Source: a virus
Length of the DNA stretch: 38,747 bases
IMG/VR virus record: IMGVR_UViG_3300009593_000047
Span: 1-38,747 of that record
Reading direction: 5' to 3' (one strand)
Shown in pieces: positions 31,254-38,747 of the stretch (positions are counted from its first letter, which is position 1; each line of letters opens with the position of its first letter). The position numbers and the translations under genes were made by a program. The notes under the pieces were generated by a model. It was not told where the DNA came from and made no database searches. It saw nothing but the letters and a program-made list of their open reading frames with translations.

Positions 31254-32165
31254 ATGACAGAACAAGCATTAGATCGTGTAAATGAAATCAACTTTGATAT
31301 TTATCATCCAGATAATATTGAAGATATGGGTGATTACATAGATCTACATGGTGAACGACAAAGACTTGAAAAAGTAATTGAACGTGCAAATAAACCATAC
31401 TTGATATATGGTGCTAAAGGTATAGGTAAAACTTCCTTGATACATTCCATATGTAAAGATAAAAAAATTGGTTTAGTTGAAGTTAATTGCAGTGCTGGTA
31501 CAAATATTGCAAGACTAGAAGGTAGATTGCAGATAGACAATAATGGATCTTACTTTGAAAGAGGAATACTTCCTATTGCATTTGAAGCCAGTAATCATTT
31601 CAAGCATGTCGTCTTGTACATAGATGAGATTGGTGCATTAAATCCTGACATACAAAAATGGTTGAACAGACCATTGGATAAAAGACATAGTTGTAGTGCT
31701 GGAGGTAGAACTTATAAATTAAATCCAGATTGTAAATTAGCAATAGTTGCTACAACCAATCCAATAGAGTATGCTGGTGTGAATAATCTTACAGAGGATT
31801 TAAGATCCAGATTCATAGGTAGGATATGGAATTATCCTAACAGTGAAGAAATGACTAAGATTATTGACTGGACTGATATACCTGAAACTGCTGTAAAAGA
31901 GCCATTACTTACATTAGCTCAAGACACATATGGTTTAAGGGTAAAAGGTGATATAGAATATGTATTGTCAACAAGGGATATCATACAGTTTGTAGAAGTA
32001 TATAGAGATCTACTTGCAGACTATGATGATGATGATCCAAATATCATAAGCAATGTATTACTTGAAACAATACATGAGACTATTATGATAAAATATACAG
32101 ATCCTCATGAACTTGAACTAATCAAAGCTAGAGTACAAGAAACATTTGGAGTGACTTTCAAATGA
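31254..32165 (+). CDS. MoxR/CobS-like AAA+ ATPase
   Basis: 303 aa. Walker A GAKGIGKT (53-60), Walker B VVLYIDEIG (119-127), sensor 1 ATTNP (166-170), arginine-finger region DLRSRFIG (183-189), and sensor-2-like STRDIIQF near residue 240. The layout matches MoxR/CobS-type remodelling ATPases, which work with a VWA-domain partner. That partner is encoded 650 bp downstream (32817). TATA TACTTAAATAATAG is ~20-35 nt upstream. First gene of a nine-gene operon. Cobalt chelation is one known role of CobS/CobT; here a remodelling or activation role on a viral or host complex is more likely. Confidence 0.75.
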   Translation: MTEQALDRVNEINFDIYHPDNIEDMGDYIDLHGERQRLEKVIERANKPYLIYGAKGIGKTSLIHSICKDKKIGLVEVNCSAGTNIARLEGRLQIDNNGSYFERGILPIAFEASNHFKHVVLYIDEIGALNPDIQKWLNRPLDKRHSCSAGGRTYKLNPDCKLAIVATTNPIEYAGVNNLTEDLRSRFIGRIWNYPNSEEMTKIIDWTDIPETAVKEPLLTLAQDTYGLRVKGDIEYVLSTRDIIQFVEVYRDLLADYDDDDPNIISNVLLETIHETIMIKYTDPHELELIKARVQETFGVTFK

Positions 32166-32479
32166 CACCCCCTACTTTTTCTTGTAAAAATGTTCATAAC
32201 TTTGATGAAAAACCATCACCAGATCCTAAGTTATGCATGCATTGCTGGTTTTTAAAAATAAATAAAGAACTTGAAAAAATATATCATACTACTGATATAC
32301 CTTGCCAATGTGGGTGTAAAGATGTATGCCCTGAATGTGACGGTGAAAGATACTGTGACTATGGTAGAGGTGAAGATGAAAGTATTGAAGGATGCCAAGT
32401 ATGTAATGAAGACGGTCATATGTATGATCCTAATGAAGATGATGCATATGATGTATGGAGAGATACCCACAATGACTGA
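32162..32479 (+). CDS. DnaJ-like multi-zinc-finger protein (105 aa)
   Basis: Starts on the ATGA overlap with the AAA+ gene. Cys pairs: LCMHC (~24-28), CQCGCKDVCPEC (~48-59) and CDYGRGEDESIEGCQVC (~65-81) followed by GH. The C-x-C-G-C..C-P-x-C-x-G and C-x2-C-x-D-G-H patterns resemble the zinc domain of DnaJ. No J-domain is present. It may bind a client protein for the AAA+/VWA pair; inference only. Confidence 0.6.
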   Translation: MTPPTFSCKNVHNFDEKPSPDPKLCMHCWFLKINKELEKIYHTTDIPCQCGCKDVCPECDGERYCDYGRGEDESIEGCQVCNEDGHMYDPNEDDAYDVWRDTHND

Positions 32480-32591
32480 TGAATATTATTGTACTCACCA
32501 AGGAAGAATCAATATGGATTATGTATTTAATGGTGAAGATGAAGTTAGAGTATTTACATGTGATGCATGTGGAGAGGAATTAGACTTATGA
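32472..32591 (+). CDS. Small zinc-binding protein (39 aa)
   Basis: ATG 32472 overlaps the previous stop by 8 bp. MTDEYYCTHQGRINMDYVFN and VFTCDACGEELDL: C-x-H and C-x2-C, one probable zinc site. The longer ORF upstream in the same frame overlaps the DnaJ-like gene fully and is a shadow there. Confidence 0.55.
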   Translation: MTDEYYCTHQGRINMDYVFNGEDEVRVFTCDACGEELDL

Positions 32592-32824
32592 GATGTAAAA
32601 TATGTAAAAAATCATTTAAAAGAACTTTGAATAAAAAATGTTGGAATGAATATGGTATGTGCATAACATGTTGCGTTATTAAGCATCCAGATGCATATCC
32701 AAAAAATATTGTTATGATGGTTCTAGCAAAAGCTAATTATTATAAAAGTCCTAAAAATAAAAACTATGCTGGTAAGACTAGAAATGCTTATAACCAATTA
32801 AAGGATAGTATTAGAAATGGCTAG
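32588..32824 (+). CDS. Zinc-ribbon protein (78 aa)
   Basis: ATG 32588 overlaps the previous stop (ATGA). MRCKICKKSFKRTLNKKCWN then MCITCCVIKHPDAYP: C-x2-C ... C-x2-C-C with a following His, then a helical basic tail (YYKSPKNKNYAGKTRNAYNQ). Overlaps the VWA gene start by 8 bp. Probably binds nucleic acid or partner protein. Confidence 0.6.
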   Translation: MRCKICKKSFKRTLNKKCWNEYGMCITCCVIKHPDAYPKNIVMMVLAKANYYKSPKNKNYAGKTRNAYNQLKDSIRNG

Positions 32825-34511
32825 AGATAGAGAATTATTAAGCGATAAAGACTTTTTTAGAAAAACTTCTGATATTGCTGAACATATGAGAGATTGTAAA
32901 ATAACTGTTGTTTTTTGGGATGATGATAACAAAGTAATACAAGATAAAAAAAATCCTAAAAAATTTACTTTGAATGTAGCTACTCCAGCAAAAAAAGGTA
33001 TTGAAAAATTCACTGCTTTTAACCATGAGATAGGACATATTATAATGGAAAGTCCTATTGCAGAGGCAAATAAGCTTGTAACTGGATGGGTTGATGAGTT
33101 TATATTAGAAAATAGAATAGCATACAATGACACTATTATTCCAGAAAGAGTAAGAGATACATACTGGAATATGATGAATTTGTTAGAAGATCAACGAATT
33201 GAGTCATTAATGCGTAGACTATGGCTAGCAAATGAAAAAAGATTTGAAAAAGCTTTAAGGAAAACAGGAAAGTTACATAAAGAATGTAACGATAACCCTG
33301 TAAGTGTAATGTTAAACATTAGATTCTTTAGAACTGATTTAGTTAAAGATCATGACAATGTTGAGTTATTTACAAAATCATTACATGACGTTGAGAATAA
33401 AGGAAGACTTGGTGCATTAATAGTTTTAAAAAAATTAAAACCAGTATTAGATAAGTGGTTAAAAGAATCTTTGAATGAAGACTTTCCACCAACATTAGAA
33501 TTTGAATCTTTGGATGGTAGAGATACAGAATTAATGGAAACTGATGAATCATTTATAAAAGAAAAAAATATTGAGGAAATAATAGATAGTATTGAAACTG
33601 ATGAGGATTATGATGAAGAATTATTATTGTCTGAAAAAGAAGGTAATAAAGACTTAAATGAATTAAGATCTTCGTTAAGTAATGAAAAACATGAAAATCC
33701 ATTAAGACCTTCATACATGAAACCAGTACAAAGAAATCCAGTTACATATAATATTGATTATCATTTGTCACATAGTCTAAGAAATGTGTTTAGAAAAATA
33801 TCAGAAATGCCTAAAAGCTTCATAGGATATGATGGTGAAGAGTTAGATATGGAATCTTATATAGAAAACAAAATTAGAGGATATGATATAAACAAATGTT
33901 TTGAAGATGTAAAAATAGATCATGGTTTATCAGTAGTCATATCTATAGATGGCTCTGGATCTATGGAAAATAGAAATAAAATGGCTGATGCAAGAGATTT
34001 AGTTGCAACTTTGTTTCATTCTGTAAAAGACTTTCCAAGTATAGAATTAAAAGCAAATGTCTGGTCTAGTGATAATAAAGGAAACGTAGGTATAACTGAT
34101 ATTAACAAATTGATTGATTGTGATAATGTAACAACTAGAGTAAAAAACTATGAGAAATATCCATATACACCTACACATTTAGCTATAGATTATGCATCTA
34201 GAGTAGCCAAAAGTATGAAAGGTAGGAAAAAATTGATAATAATGATAACTGATGGTGAGCCTCAATATCAAAGTTGGGGTTATTCTATATCTTCACAGAC
34301 TTTACTGAATATGAATAAAAAATCATTTAAAAAAGCAAGAAGAAATGTTAATGAAATAGTTGTGTTTGCTATCTCTGTTAACCGAAATCAATTAAATAAT
34401 CTAACATATGTGTTCTCACCTAAAAGAGTAGTAAGTGTCAACCAAATGAATGAAGGTGTAAAATTAATTACAAATAAGTTCAAGATGGCTGTACTAGACA
34501 CACTTAAATAG
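32817..34511 (+). CDS. CobT-like VWA protein with HExxH metallopeptidase-like motif
   Basis: 564 aa. N-terminal half: FNHEIGHIIMES with HEIGH at 70-74, and the motif LLEDQRIES at 122-130, as in CobT-type and VWA-like metallopeptidase families, where H-H-E may bind zinc. A very acidic linker spans ~220-290 (ETDESFIKEKNIEEIIDSIE, EDYDEELLLSEKEG). The C-terminal VWA domain has a full MIDAS: D378-G-S-G-S-M, a conserved Thr in YTPTHLAI, and TDGEP at 478-482. It follows the MoxR-like ATPase, so the pair forms a MoxR-VWA module. Enzyme activity of the HExxH region is untested. Confidence 0.75.
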   Translation: MARDRELLSDKDFFRKTSDIAEHMRDCKITVVFWDDDNKVIQDKKNPKKFTLNVATPAKKGIEKFTAFNHEIGHIIMESPIAEANKLVTGWVDEFILENRIAYNDTIIPERVRDTYWNMMNLLEDQRIESLMRRLWLANEKRFEKALRKTGKLHKECNDNPVSVMLNIRFFRTDLVKDHDNVELFTKSLHDVENKGRLGALIVLKKLKPVLDKWLKESLNEDFPPTLEFESLDGRDTELMETDESFIKEKNIEEIIDSIETDEDYDEELLLSEKEGNKDLNELRSSLSNEKHENPLRPSYMKPVQRNPVTYNIDYHLSHSLRNVFRKISEMPKSFIGYDGEELDMESYIENKIRGYDINKCFEDVKIDHGLSVVISIDGSGSMENRNKMADARDLVATLFHSVKDFPSIELKANVWSSDNKGNVGITDINKLIDCDNVTTRVKNYEKYPYTPTHLAIDYASRVAKSMKGRKKLIIMITDGEPQYQSWGYSISSQTLLNMNKKSFKKARRNVNEIVVFAISVNRNQLNNLTYVFSPKRVVSVNQMNEGVKLITNKFKMAVLDTLK

Positions 34512-34531: not shown

Positions 34532-34786
34532 ATGGTTAAAGAAATTGACAAAAATATATACAGTAGAATAGAGATCAAAGAACTTATAAGTAAGTTAACC
34601 GATCAAGAATTGATAACAGAAGTGGTTTTCAATCGTTCAAAAACTATTAAAAGAATCATAGAGATTCAGAAAGAAATATGGATTCCTATTCATAGAGATA
34701 AGGAAGAATATTTTAAAGCGATGGATGATGATGGTTTGAAAAGACAACTTTCTATGCATGAATATGCATTAGCAAATCCAGTATGA
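34532..34786 (+). CDS. Small basic helical protein (84 aa)
   Basis: MVKEIDKNIYSRIEIKELIS..., helical (FNRSKTIKRIIEIQKEIWIP) with an acidic-to-basic mix. 20 bp after the VWA gene and 4 bp overlap with the next gene (ATGA). Encoded in the MoxR-VWA operon; could be a cofactor. No family recognised. Confidence 0.55.
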   Translation: MVKEIDKNIYSRIEIKELISKLTDQELITEVVFNRSKTIKRIIEIQKEIWIPIHRDKEEYFKAMDDDGLKRQLSMHEYALANPV

Positions 34787-35049
34787 CTTTATCAGAAAGA
34801 GAAAGGTTTCTCTATCACCTTTCAGTTTTAATGACAATGGATGCAATAAAACAAGATGTAGATGTTAATGTAGATGAAATGTTATATGCTATATGGAAAA
34901 ATAGATGTAGAAAATTAACAGATTCAGACATTAAAAAAATATATGAAGAGGTTGAAGAAGAAGCTATGAATGGTACAAGCGTATATGAAGAGTTTACTGC
35001 AACAGGTAATTTTGAATCAAAGAAAGGGAGTGATGATGACCTCAGATAA
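34783..35049 (+). CDS. Hypothetical protein (88 aa)
   Basis: MTLSERERFLYHLSVLMTMD..., helical, with MLYAIWKNRCRKLTDSDIKK and an acidic end (ESKKGSDDDLR). ATGA overlap with the previous gene and a 17-bp overlap with the next ATG. Operon membership is the main clue to function. Confidence 0.5.
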   Translation: MTLSERERFLYHLSVLMTMDAIKQDVDVNVDEMLYAIWKNRCRKLTDSDIKKIYEEVEEEAMNGTSVYEEFTATGNFESKKGSDDDLR

Positions 35050-35156: not shown

Positions 35157-35357
35157 ATGTGTAATGGTATATGTTCTAGGTTTAAAAAAGAATTAGGTGT
35201 CAATTTTTATTGTCAAGGTTGTGCAAAATTCATAAGTAAATCCAATGTTATCAAAGAATTAAAGATAAATGGTAGAATGAGATGCTCATGTTGTAATGGT
35301 TTAGTTAGAAATAAAGAAAGATATAGAACCATACATGGATTTAAATCGATTCATTAG
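35157..35357 (+). CDS. Zinc-ribbon protein (66 aa)
   Basis: ATG 35157, one base after the previous stop, with TTGGAG upstream. MCNGICSRFKKELGVNFYCQ, GC, then MRCSCCNGLVRNKERYR: three Cys groups (C-x3-C, C-x2-C, C-x-C-C). The 3' end overlaps the minus-strand metallopeptidase gene by 17 bp (convergent). Last gene of the operon. Confidence 0.55.
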   Translation: MCNGICSRFKKELGVNFYCQGCAKFISKSNVIKELKINGRMRCSCCNGLVRNKERYRTIHGFKSIH

Positions 35358-35583
35358 CCCATTGTATACAAAATATCAACCTTTCTTCTTGATCTTCATC
35401 CATTGTAACTGTTTCACCTAGGTTATCAAAGCAGAAATGTAGTAATTCATGTTGAATTGTCTGTAATACATCGTCTAAACTTTCATGTTGGTTGAGATTT
35501 ATCACACATCTTCGAGATTCTGCATAATAAGTGCCTCTATCATCTCCATATGTACGCATATCTACACTCACATTATTGTCCAT
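35341..35583 (-). CDS. Mini-metallopeptidase-like protein (80 aa)
   Basis: LQTIQHELLHFCFDNLGETV contains HELLH, a HExxH zinc motif in a helix, followed by an acidic region DEDQEERL where the third ligand could be. N-terminus is beta-type (MRTYGDDRGTYYAE, RCVINLN). This is the size of minimal phage SprT/ImmA-like domains. TATA CTTTAATAATG (minus) is ~25 nt upstream. Enzymatic role inferred from the motif only. Confidence 0.55.
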   Translation of the reverse strand: MDNNVSVDMRTYGDDRGTYYAESRRCVINLNQHESLDDVLQTIQHELLHFCFDNLGETVTMDEDQEERLIFCIQWANESI

Positions 35584-36486: not shown

Positions 36487-36582
36487 TCAATGCAGGCAAA
36501 CGTATGAACCTCTGTATGTTTTAGGGTAAGGACGTATACAACCCCTATAATCATATTCTAGCCACATGAGTGTAATATTCAT
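36487..36582 (-). CDS. Short ORF coupled to radA (31 aa)
   Basis: ATG 36582 overlaps the radA stop (ATGA). MNITLMWLEYDYRGCIRPYP then KTYRGSYVCLH and TGA. One Cys, then Cys-x-His at the end; not a full zinc site. It may be a real trailing peptide or a chance ORF. The 149-nt gap before the nuclease gene otherwise holds only promoter-like sequence. Confidence 0.4.
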   Translation of the reverse strand: MNITLMWLEYDYRGCIRPYPKTYRGSYVCLH

Positions 36583-37625
36583 TCTTCTATATCCTCCACA
36601 CCTTTTGCTGTCAATCTGTACTCAGCATCTGCTTGTGGATGTTCTGGTGAATCTACCATTCTTGCAATTCTTTTCTTACCTGATTTCTTAAAGTATACTC
36701 TATATGTTGCGGCATGACCTACAACATTTCCTCCTATTGGTTTGACTGGATCACCAAACATAATAGATGGATCAGTTTGAACTTGATTTGTAAATATAAC
36801 AGTACACTTAAAATAATATGATATGTTTTTAATATGTGTCATAAGTCTAGCTATTTGATTTTGTCTGTCTGCTAATGTTCCTCTACCTAGGTATTCCTCT
36901 CTAAACTGACCTATTGCACCGTCAATAATGACTAGTTTTGCCTTCTTTTCCTCCATTGTTTTAGATAAAGCGTTGATAGTTCCTAGTAATTGTTCAGTAT
37001 TTGGTGTATAAAAATAACTAATATGTTTTAAAGAGTCTTCTAATTCTTCTTTAGAATCAGCATATTCTCTTGACTTTAATATCTCAATTATTCTTCTTGG
37101 TCTGAAAGTATCTTCACAGTCAACCCATACAACATTATCACCGTTGTTAATTGTTTCAACTGTCAATGTATTACAAAACTGTGTTTTACCTGAACCAAAT
37201 TCACCATATACTTCATATACACATTCTGGTTTAATACCGCCTCCAAACAACTCGTCTATTGCTACACATTTGGTAGGAACTGACTCTAAGTTTTCTTGGT
37301 ATTCCATCAAGTCAATAATATCTAAGTCTGATTTTCTAATCATATTATTATCTTCTAATATTTTTTGAGCATTGAAAACCCATCCATCTGCTTTTGCTTT
37401 TGTTACTCCAGTAATCTCTGATATCTCACGACCACCTCTAATACAAATATCAATTAGAGATGTAACTCCAAAAGTTTCTAACTTTTTAGTTGTTACACCT
37501 CCAACTCCATCTAACTGATTTACAGATAAATCTACTTTTGGCTCGGATTCAATTTCTATAGTTTCTGACATACCATCTGATATGTCATCTTCTATATTAC
37601 CTTTATGTTCTTTTCCAAGTACCAT
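36579..37625 (-). CDS. radA: RadA/Rad51-family recombinase
   Basis: 348 aa. N-terminal helix-hairpin-helix-like DNA-binding domain (~35-95, LDGVGGVTTKKLETFGVTSL), then the RecA-type ATPase core: Walker A GEFGSGKTQ (141-149), Walker B LVIIDGAIG (231-239), L1 FREEYLGRGTLADRQNQIAR (241-260), L2 around NQVQTDPSIMFGDPVKPIGG (280-299) and the C-terminal GHAATYRVYFKKSGKKRIAR. This is the archaeal RadA layout, not bacterial RecA. It would promote strand exchange and genome repair. The annotated ATG overlaps the MCM stop by 23 bp; an in-frame ATG at 37571 (MSETIEIE) would avoid the overlap. Confidence 0.9.
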   Translation of the reverse strand: MVLGKEHKGNIEDDISDGMSETIEIESEPKVDLSVNQLDGVGGVTTKKLETFGVTSLIDICIRGGREISEITGVTKAKADGWVFNAQKILEDNNMIRKSDLDIIDLMEYQENLESVPTKCVAIDELFGGGIKPECVYEVYGEFGSGKTQFCNTLTVETINNGDNVVWVDCEDTFRPRRIIEILKSREYADSKEELEDSLKHISYFYTPNTEQLLGTINALSKTMEEKKAKLVIIDGAIGQFREEYLGRGTLADRQNQIARLMTHIKNISYYFKCTVIFTNQVQTDPSIMFGDPVKPIGGNVVGHAATYRVYFKKSGKKRIARMVDSPEHPQADAEYRLTAKGVEDIEE

Positions 37626-38747
37626 CAGGCATCACCTTAATTTGATTTGTTTTTTCCCACATTCCAAATATCTTCTGTCTTTCTAAGTCACCTATGCCTT
37701 CTGCATCAAGCTTCTTAAAGAACTCACTCATTTTTACACATCCATTTTGATCTTTACATTGATCCCATATATGTATATGTAATTGCTGTTTAGACATTTT
37801 ACCAGTACTACCAATTAATGTTGATTGATTACCAGTAGATGCTATCAAATCAATTCCAAAATTAGAGAACATATCTACTAATAAATTCTTGACCGAGTTA
37901 ATATCTTCTAATTCTACGTTTTCTTTGAATCTTAATTTAGCATGAGCCATTGATAATCTTATCAATGCTTCAAGCTGTCTTATACCTACATTTAATTCAG
38001 TGTTAGAAGACTGTCTGAGTTTCTCATATATTTTTACTATTTCATCTCTTACTTCTTTGGTAATTTTTGGTGTACATTTCTTTGCTTCATTTATGAATGC
38101 TGTCAATTCATCACTATCAAACCTACAATCACTGCTGGTTTCTGTCTCATCAAATCCATCAAGGATGTGGTTAGCTTTCATTATATCTTCTGTGACATTA
38201 ACACCATCTCTTATTAACCAAATAAGATCAAATCTTGATAATAACGGACTTGGTATGTTTATGTTATCCATTAATGATAAGTCTGGATCATAGTTACCAA
38301 ATTTTGGGTTAGCTGCCGCCATTATACTTGTTTTTGCTTCTAATGTTAATGATATACCAGCCTTGGCTATAGATACTGTTTGTTGTTCCATTGCCTCATG
38401 CATAGAAGATCTGTCATCTTTTCCCATCTTATCAAATTCATCTATGAATGCATATCCACCAGAACATAAAGGTAATACACCAGCTTGTGCTACCATTCTT
38501 CCATCTGATAGTTTTACCATACCGATAGTTAGACCAGCACTAGTAGAACCTCTACCAGATGTATAAACTGATTTTTGTGTTATACTTTTACCATATTTCA
38601 ATAGTTCAGATTTTGCCATTGAAGGATCACCAACTAATAGAATATTGATATCACCTCTCTTCTTTGTCTTGACACCCCCTACTAATTGTAGTAAACATGA
38701 CAGTTTGATGTTATCATAACCGTAAATATCAGGTGCATAACTATGAA
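37603..38747 (-). CDS. mcm: MCM replicative helicase, partial (start beyond the right edge)
   Basis: 380 residues are visible and the frame runs off the window. SYAPDIYGYDNIKLSCLLQL is the pre-ATPase MCM signature. Walker A GDPSMAKSELL (39-49), Walker B with the MCM box YAFIDEFDKM, sensor 1 SIMAAANP, arginine finger PLLSRFDLIW, a helical lid, and a C-terminal winged-helix-like domain (MSKQQLHIHIWDQCKDQNGC, EKTNQIKVMPDGTWKRT). It would unwind DNA at replication forks. Ser-Met replaces the usual Gly-Thr/Val in Walker A. Encoded just upstream of radA in the same unit. Confidence 0.9.
   Translation of the reverse strand, partial: HSYAPDIYGYDNIKLSCLLQLVGGVKTKKRGDINILLVGDPSMAKSELLKYGKSITQKSVYTSGRGSTSAGLTIGMVKLSDGRMVAQAGVLPLCSGGYAFIDEFDKMGKDDRSSMHEAMEQQTVSIAKAGISLTLEAKTSIMAAANPKFGNYDPDLSLMDNINIPSPLLSRFDLIWLIRDGVNVTEDIMKANHILDGFDETETSSDCRFDSDELTAFINEAKKCTPKITKEVRDEIVKIYEKLRQSSNTELNVGIRQLEALIRLSMAHAKLRFKENVELEDINSVKNLLVDMFSNFGIDLIASTGNQSTLIGSTGKMSKQQLHIHIWDQCKDQNGCVKMSEFFKKLDAEGIGDLERQKIFGMWEKTNQIKVMPDGTWKRT

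Follow-up and report, generated by a model that had tools for sequence, protein, structure and literature searches.

An AAA+/VWA Gene Pair of the Viral CobS/CobT Family in an Archaeal Tailed Virus: A Candidate ATP-Driven Remodeler with a Gluzincin-like Signature

The IMG/VR viral record IMGVR_UViG_3300009593_000047 (38,747 bases, GC 34%; this whole stretch is referred to as the window) encodes an AAA+ ATPase and a VWA protein that are almost certainly members of the known viral "CobS/CobT" family. On balance, the pair is best explained as an ATP-driven remodeler of the NorQD type, the VWA partner of which carries a gluzincin-like N-terminal domain. Judged from alignments, the peptidase-like zinc signature of this partner appears to be a viral hallmark that is missing from genuine CobT. 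Since the signature is conserved in the viral proteins and absent from CobT, the usual vitamin-B12 label is probably misleading for the window pair. Surveys of marine viruses often count viral cobS and cobT as B12 auxiliary metabolic genes, and cyanophages have cobS among their core genes. If a site that CobT has lost is retained in the viral partners, and if the likely hosts lack CobN, the ecological reading in terms of B12 would be wrong for at least this branch. The question to replace it would then be which protein the motor remodels or cuts during infection.

The initial annotation had described an operon of five genes, and all five are found on the + strand in the place and order that it gave (Table 1). 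Neighboring genes from AAA+ through VWA overlap by 4–8 bases at every junction. For zf2, a longer ORF from 32271 was listed mechanically, most of which overlaps zf1 in a different frame. Because the same order of all five genes recurs in five viral contigs (VWA proteins 55–84% identical), we can exclude chance ORFs and conclude that the five genes are under selection. Two further genes were observed downstream. A Cys-rich protein of 66 aa (MCNGICSRF...RMRCSCCNGLVRNK; 35157–35357, + strand) is conserved in most related viral loci. An 80-aa HExxH protein (35341–35583, − strand) matches the IrrE/M78 domain PF06114 at 3e-4, just under the cut-off, and represents a second, separate zinc-peptidase-like gene close to the operon.

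Table 1. Positions of the operon genes, sequence motifs, and neighboring genes in the window.
Feature	Position	Strand	Description
MoxR-type AAA+ ATPase (CobS/NorQ/CbbQ-like motor)	31254..32165	+	303 aa
zf1	32162..32479	+	105 aa, Cys-rich; CxCxC, CPECDGE, CQVC motifs; ORF
zf2	32472..32591	+	39 aa; CxH, CxxC motifs
zf3	32588..32824	+	78 aa, zinc-finger-like; CxxC..CW..CxxC, five invariant Cys
VWA/MIDAS adaptor with N-terminal gluzincin-like domain	32817..34511	+	564 aa; PF00092, alignments, AlphaFold models
HEIGH	33024..33038	+	residues 70–74; putative zinc ligands H70, H74; E71 putative general base
LLEDQRIE	33180..33203	+	residues 122–129; E124 putative third ligand; E129 invariant
MIDAS DGSGSM	33948..33965	+	residues 378–383; D378, S380, S382, M383 invariant
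Downstream gene	34532..34786	+	84 aa; SRSKTIKRI-like motif; conserved VWA neighbor in relatives
Second downstream gene (SERERFLYHLSVLMT)	34783..35049	+	88 aa; conserved neighbor in relatives
RadA gene	36579–37625		window right end
MCM gene	37603–38619		window right end

The AAA+ protein matches PF07728 (AAA_5, E 2e-16) and phrog_249 ("porphyrin biosynthesis", 6e-23), and its relatives in the PDB are Midasin, CbbQ, and NorQ. The protein has the AAA_5 domain of the MoxR class together with the Walker motifs (A, GAKGIGKT; B, LYIDE), the Arg finger, and the sensors of this class; the Walker motifs, the Arg finger, and sensor 2 are visible in the sequence, for which a full set of motifs had been claimed. 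Eight relatives of this protein are 68–94% identical. The VWA protein matches PF00092 (E 7e-9) and contains, as had been claimed, a full MIDAS (D378-S380-S382 / T451-T453 / D479). A profile built from 14 viral VWA proteins retrieved cobaltochelatase CobT (9uka_G) at 3e-41, followed by Midasin and NorD, with viral LEDQRIE aligned to VEQARVE of 9uka_G; when the profile was built from just the close relatives, it reached neither CobT nor NorD at 1e-3. The initial description as a MoxR/CobS-CobT-like pair of AAA+ and VWA proteins, encoded by an archaeal virus, was right. Both traits of the viral CobS/CobT-like proteins are found in the window: a MoxR AAA+ gene near a VWA gene in a tailed virus, and HExxH...E[DE]xx[IV]E together with MIDAS.

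The N-terminal region of the VWA protein does contain the HExxH and LLEDQR motifs that were pointed out initially, and they form a conserved metallopeptidase-like signature. Since LLEDQR occupies residues 122–127, its Glu is E124 and not E125; the earlier numbering was off by one. With H70, E71, and H74 and with E124 as the putative ligand, the protein has the HExxH and the conserved downstream Glu of gluzincins. The expectation for HExxH by composition is ~0.02. Scans of viral contigs yielded eleven VWA relatives (41–84% identical), and H70, E71, and H74 are invariant across the 11 close relatives. The divergent alignment comprises 14 viral VWA proteins including the window group, and its divergent members are 14–18% identical to the window protein. 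These were the VWA partners of CobS-like AAA+ proteins from HVTV-1, Actinomycetia phage DSL-LC01, SSU5, RHEph10, Chidiebere, nickie, BS162P1, and P-SSM4, and also the VWA protein of Pumpernickel, next to which no separate AAA+ gene is annotated in the stretch read. Ten columns show no variation among the 14 proteins (M1, E71, E124, E129, D378, S380, S382, M383, D479, and G480), and 13 proteins retain both H70 and H74, with nickie as the sole loss. In this Pseudomonas phage (L022 879–2963), SEISK replaces HExxH, so that both His are lost, and the equivalents of E71, E124, and E129 are kept. The first His and the Glu are spaced 25–57 residues apart. All cyanophage-type viral loci (25/25) keep HExxH and E-D-x-x-[IV]-E. 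Scanning BS162P1 gave one partial relative, a tblastn search of phages with the window VWA protein gave no match, and genome contigs scanned with the VWA alignment yielded none either.

A possible protease site had been taken as one mark of a distinct machine. HExxH plus LEDxR is instead a hallmark of viral CobT-like proteins generally and ranges over cyanophages as well as viruses of enterobacteria, actinobacteria, Bacteroides, and haloarchaea. In four CobT proteins encoded at bacterial cobS-cobT loci, HExxH is missing at the aligned place and both Glu of E..RxE are kept. CobT, nickie, and the Nitrosopumilaceae genome G117 have lost HExxH but retain E124 and E129, so these residues also have a role other than binding zinc.

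The full-length VWA protein was modeled by AlphaFold with a mean pLDDT of 76, and its best matches in the PDB come from NorQD complexes, in which they are the VWA chains of NorD (4e-8); the C-terminal VWA domain combines an intact MIDAS with a NorD-like fold. The model of the N-terminal region (pLDDT 84, pTM 0.80) runs from strands through the HEIGH helix to the LLEDQR helix. The alignment behind these models is shallow (11 sequences). Gluzincin-type HExxH peptidases (abylysin, MATCAP, PprI, selecase) are among the best PDB matches of the N-terminal model, all weakly; none of its PDB matches is significant alone, the lowest E being 0.19 (abylysin, prob 0.93), and the HExxH residues themselves may bias such Foldseek matches. 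Among viral predicted structures, CobT-like N-termini are the best named matches, with E down to 1e-4, and SprT-like and peptidase proteins rank below them. These matches also include an uncharacterized protein of HHTV-2, a virus in which cobT is reported to be split in two ORFs (PMC8651126).

The zinc-finger-like genes are a clade-specific accessory set of the AAA+/VWA pair. The AAA+ gene lies upstream of the VWA gene in viral relatives wherever the contig extends far enough, and what stands between them varies. Five loci (L003, L004, L005, L008, L010) contain zf1, zf2, and zf3; L011 contains zf1 and zf3 without zf2, L012 and L013 contain zf3 only, and L014 contains none of the three. With the window counted, ten loci have zf3 as the gene immediately before VWA. 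This variation among loci indicates that none of the three genes is obligatory and that zf3 is the preferred partner. The initial annotation had read the three inserted zinc proteins as a sign of a distinct machine and had named relatives without them as speaking against this idea. Our survey of gene neighbors found exactly such relatives, since L014 and G074 of the Nitrosopumilaceae have the pair with no zinc gene, and L011–L014 and G074 led us to reject the zinc-finger genes as defining parts. In L014 (2823–4186), genes for a calcineurin-like phosphoesterase and a winged-helix protein stand between AAA+ and VWA in their place. As for the proposed DnaJ-like character of zf1, its CxxC motifs can be seen by eye, but the protein has neither a Pfam match nor a J domain; zf1 and zf3 have no recognizable relationship. 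J-domain (DnaJ) genes adjoin bacterial cobS-cobT loci and the Nitrosopumilaceae AAA-VWA pair (L053 448–1083, L054 1–234, L055 1–362, L048 10590–11237). The window has DnaJ-zinc-finger-like zf1 between AAA+ and VWA; association with a chaperone may be a recurrent trait of these motors.

By its gene content, the window belongs to an archaeal tailed virus. The major capsid protein is homologous to that of haloarchaeal Druskaviridae (26% identical), and portal, head, and tape-measure PHROG families are matched. Nitrosopumilaceae (the Nitrosopelagicus family) are the likely host, since the nearest cellular homologues were found there and since Marthavirus, of which radA and CobS are characteristic, has been described as infecting a thaumarchaeal group (PMC7678222). 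The window RadA is only 41–45% identical to RadA of Nitrosopumilaceae, the one family compared. The capsid protein had no match in 200 Nitrosopumilaceae genomes, the downstream small zinc protein had none in 31, and amoC was not found in the virus records.

The AAA+ tree contains a window clade (100/100) with thaumarchaeal G074, G117, and G040, apart from CobS, which groups with SSU5, RHEph10, and nickie (91/88). Likewise, the VWA tree joins the window clade with G074, G117, and G040 (100/99) and CobT with SSU5, RHEph10, and nickie (96/94). As the main groupings of the two trees agree, the pair is co-inherited; several long branches make the deep joins unsure. The HExxH state requires a minimum of three changes on the VWA tree, which fall on the branches of CobT, nickie, and G117. 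The VWA N-terminus was detected at E ≤ 1e-3 in 2 of 151 Nitrosopumilaceae genomes (G074 and G040), and G117 has an AAA-VWA pair that has lost HExxH. In G074 the AAA+ and VWA genes overlap and the zinc genes are absent; downstream follows a J-domain gene (PF00226, 5e-13). A PD-(D/E)XK / Cas4-like nuclease gene stands directly upstream of this pair (L048 6892–7698).

Cryo-EM work on NorQ/NorD places a VWA finger in the AAA+ pore and shows that VWA rotates relative to the N-terminal domain (PMC13036017, PMC9976466). A motor action of this type has good probability for the window pair. The AAA+ protein would form a hexamer, and the VWA protein would bind it as in NorQ/NorD, with a finger in the pore of the ring and MIDAS facing the substrate. 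ATP turnover would then twist the VWA domain against the N-terminal domain, and the minigluzincin-like zinc domain would grip and possibly cleave the substrate. The protein zf3 (with zf1 and zf2 in some viruses) would be accessory, possibly as an adaptor for substrate or nucleic acid. In the window virus the pair would not be a working cobaltochelatase. Binding of a metal by the N-terminal domain is fairly probable; that this domain is a putative working peptidase is conceivable, with the balance slightly against it. The proposal of a distinct remodeling machine holds in that remodeling fits better than chelation, and fails in that the signature is family-wide and the zinc genes are dispensable.

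A wider reading would make the viral "CobST" pairs across tailed viruses ATP-driven AAA+/VWA metalloproteases, or zinc-dependent unfoldases, that serve infection and are no B12 auxiliary genes, with cellular CobT as a descendant or as a sister that lost the zinc site. We advance this reading only tentatively. The "peptidase" label of cyanophages, reportedly called a mistake in the literature, would then be near the truth.

The alternative that survives best, though somewhat unlikely, is a NorQD/CbbQO-type chaperone for metal insertion or maturation without any peptidase role, in which the sole task of the N-terminal domain is to bind the client, and HExxH holds a structural or transferred metal. 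NorD as the best structural match agrees with this idea, as do the at least three changes of the HExxH state with the machine kept; however, E71, the would-be general base, is conserved like the MIDAS residues, and most lineages keep HExxH. We are more doubtful of an adaptor-driven protease of the replication complex that clears or cuts DNA-bound proteins. The model for it is SPRTN, which works with p97 on DNA-bound proteins. RadA and MCM near the operon, neighbors in several phages such as clamp and clamp loader, DNA polymerase III, DNA polymerase, and DnaB, and the SprT-like folds among the weaker viral structure matches would suit such an enzyme, but replication modules fill much of these genomes, so that adjacency may be chance, and no DNA-binding domain was found.

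Less probable still is an auxiliary cobaltochelatase, in which cobalt insertion by viral CobS/CobT with host CobN increases the B12 that serves nucleotide synthesis. Homology of the VWA partner to CobT favors it, and so does precedent: viral cobST boosting B12 via host CobN is the published view for archaeal tailed viruses (PMC8651126), and cobalt insertion was also proposed for cyanophages (PMC2984593). Several observations stand against it. Neither the window VWA protein nor the AAA+ protein passes the respective model (CobT PF06213, CobS TIGR01650), the AAA+ protein falls outside CobS in the tree, and viral proteins keep the HExxH that true CobT lacks. CobN was found in 0/10 virus records, which are fragments, and in 0/151 Nitrosopumilaceae genomes, with control genomes giving a match; the thaumarchaeal B12 pathway is reported to be anaerobic and to proceed without CobNST (PMC4303638). 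Because the models fail, the AAA+ protein lies outside the CobS clade, and CobN is absent from these records and genomes, we rejected the cobaltochelatase reading and regard a B12 role for the window pair as unlikely. Finally, a defense-system reading was rejected as well, since the AAA+ protein has only weak PADLOC matches, which resemble those of P-loop proteins in general; the VWA and zinc genes had no PADLOC match.

Compared with known systems, the window pair shares with cobaltochelatase CobS/CobT plus CobN the combination of AAA+ and VWA with MIDAS and the E..RxE motif, and differs in its HExxH, in the position of its AAA+ protein in the tree, and in having no CobN partner found. The minigluzincin/IrrE-type peptidases (abylysin, selecase, PprI, CapP) offer weak fold matches with strands, HExxH helix, and Glu helix, a similarity not significant alone, whereas the window domain is fused to VWA and paired with AAA+. 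NorQ/NorD and CbbQ/CbbO have the same motor plan, and NorD is the best structural match of the VWA region, but the close relatives alone give no full-length sequence match at 1e-3 and the client is unrelated. The closest cellular relatives are the Nitrosopumilaceae pairs of G074, G040, and G117 (G074 AAA 1e-66, VWA N-terminus 5e-49), which belong to the window clade in both trees; they depart from the window in that G074 has a J-domain gene instead of zinc-finger genes and G117 lacks HExxH. In the viral CobS/CobT cluster (Druskaviridae HVTV-1 gp59/gp57, cyanophage P-SSM4 cobS and "peptidase", SSU5_050/049, Gordonia phage Chidiebere gp72/gp73), the gene order is reversed in some phages, no zinc-finger genes were recognized between the two genes, and the VWA proteins are only about 15% identical to that of the window; what these viruses have in common with it are MoxR AAA+ and VWA genes that lie side by side or nearly so, and a VWA protein with HExxH, E-D-x-x-I-E, and MIDAS.
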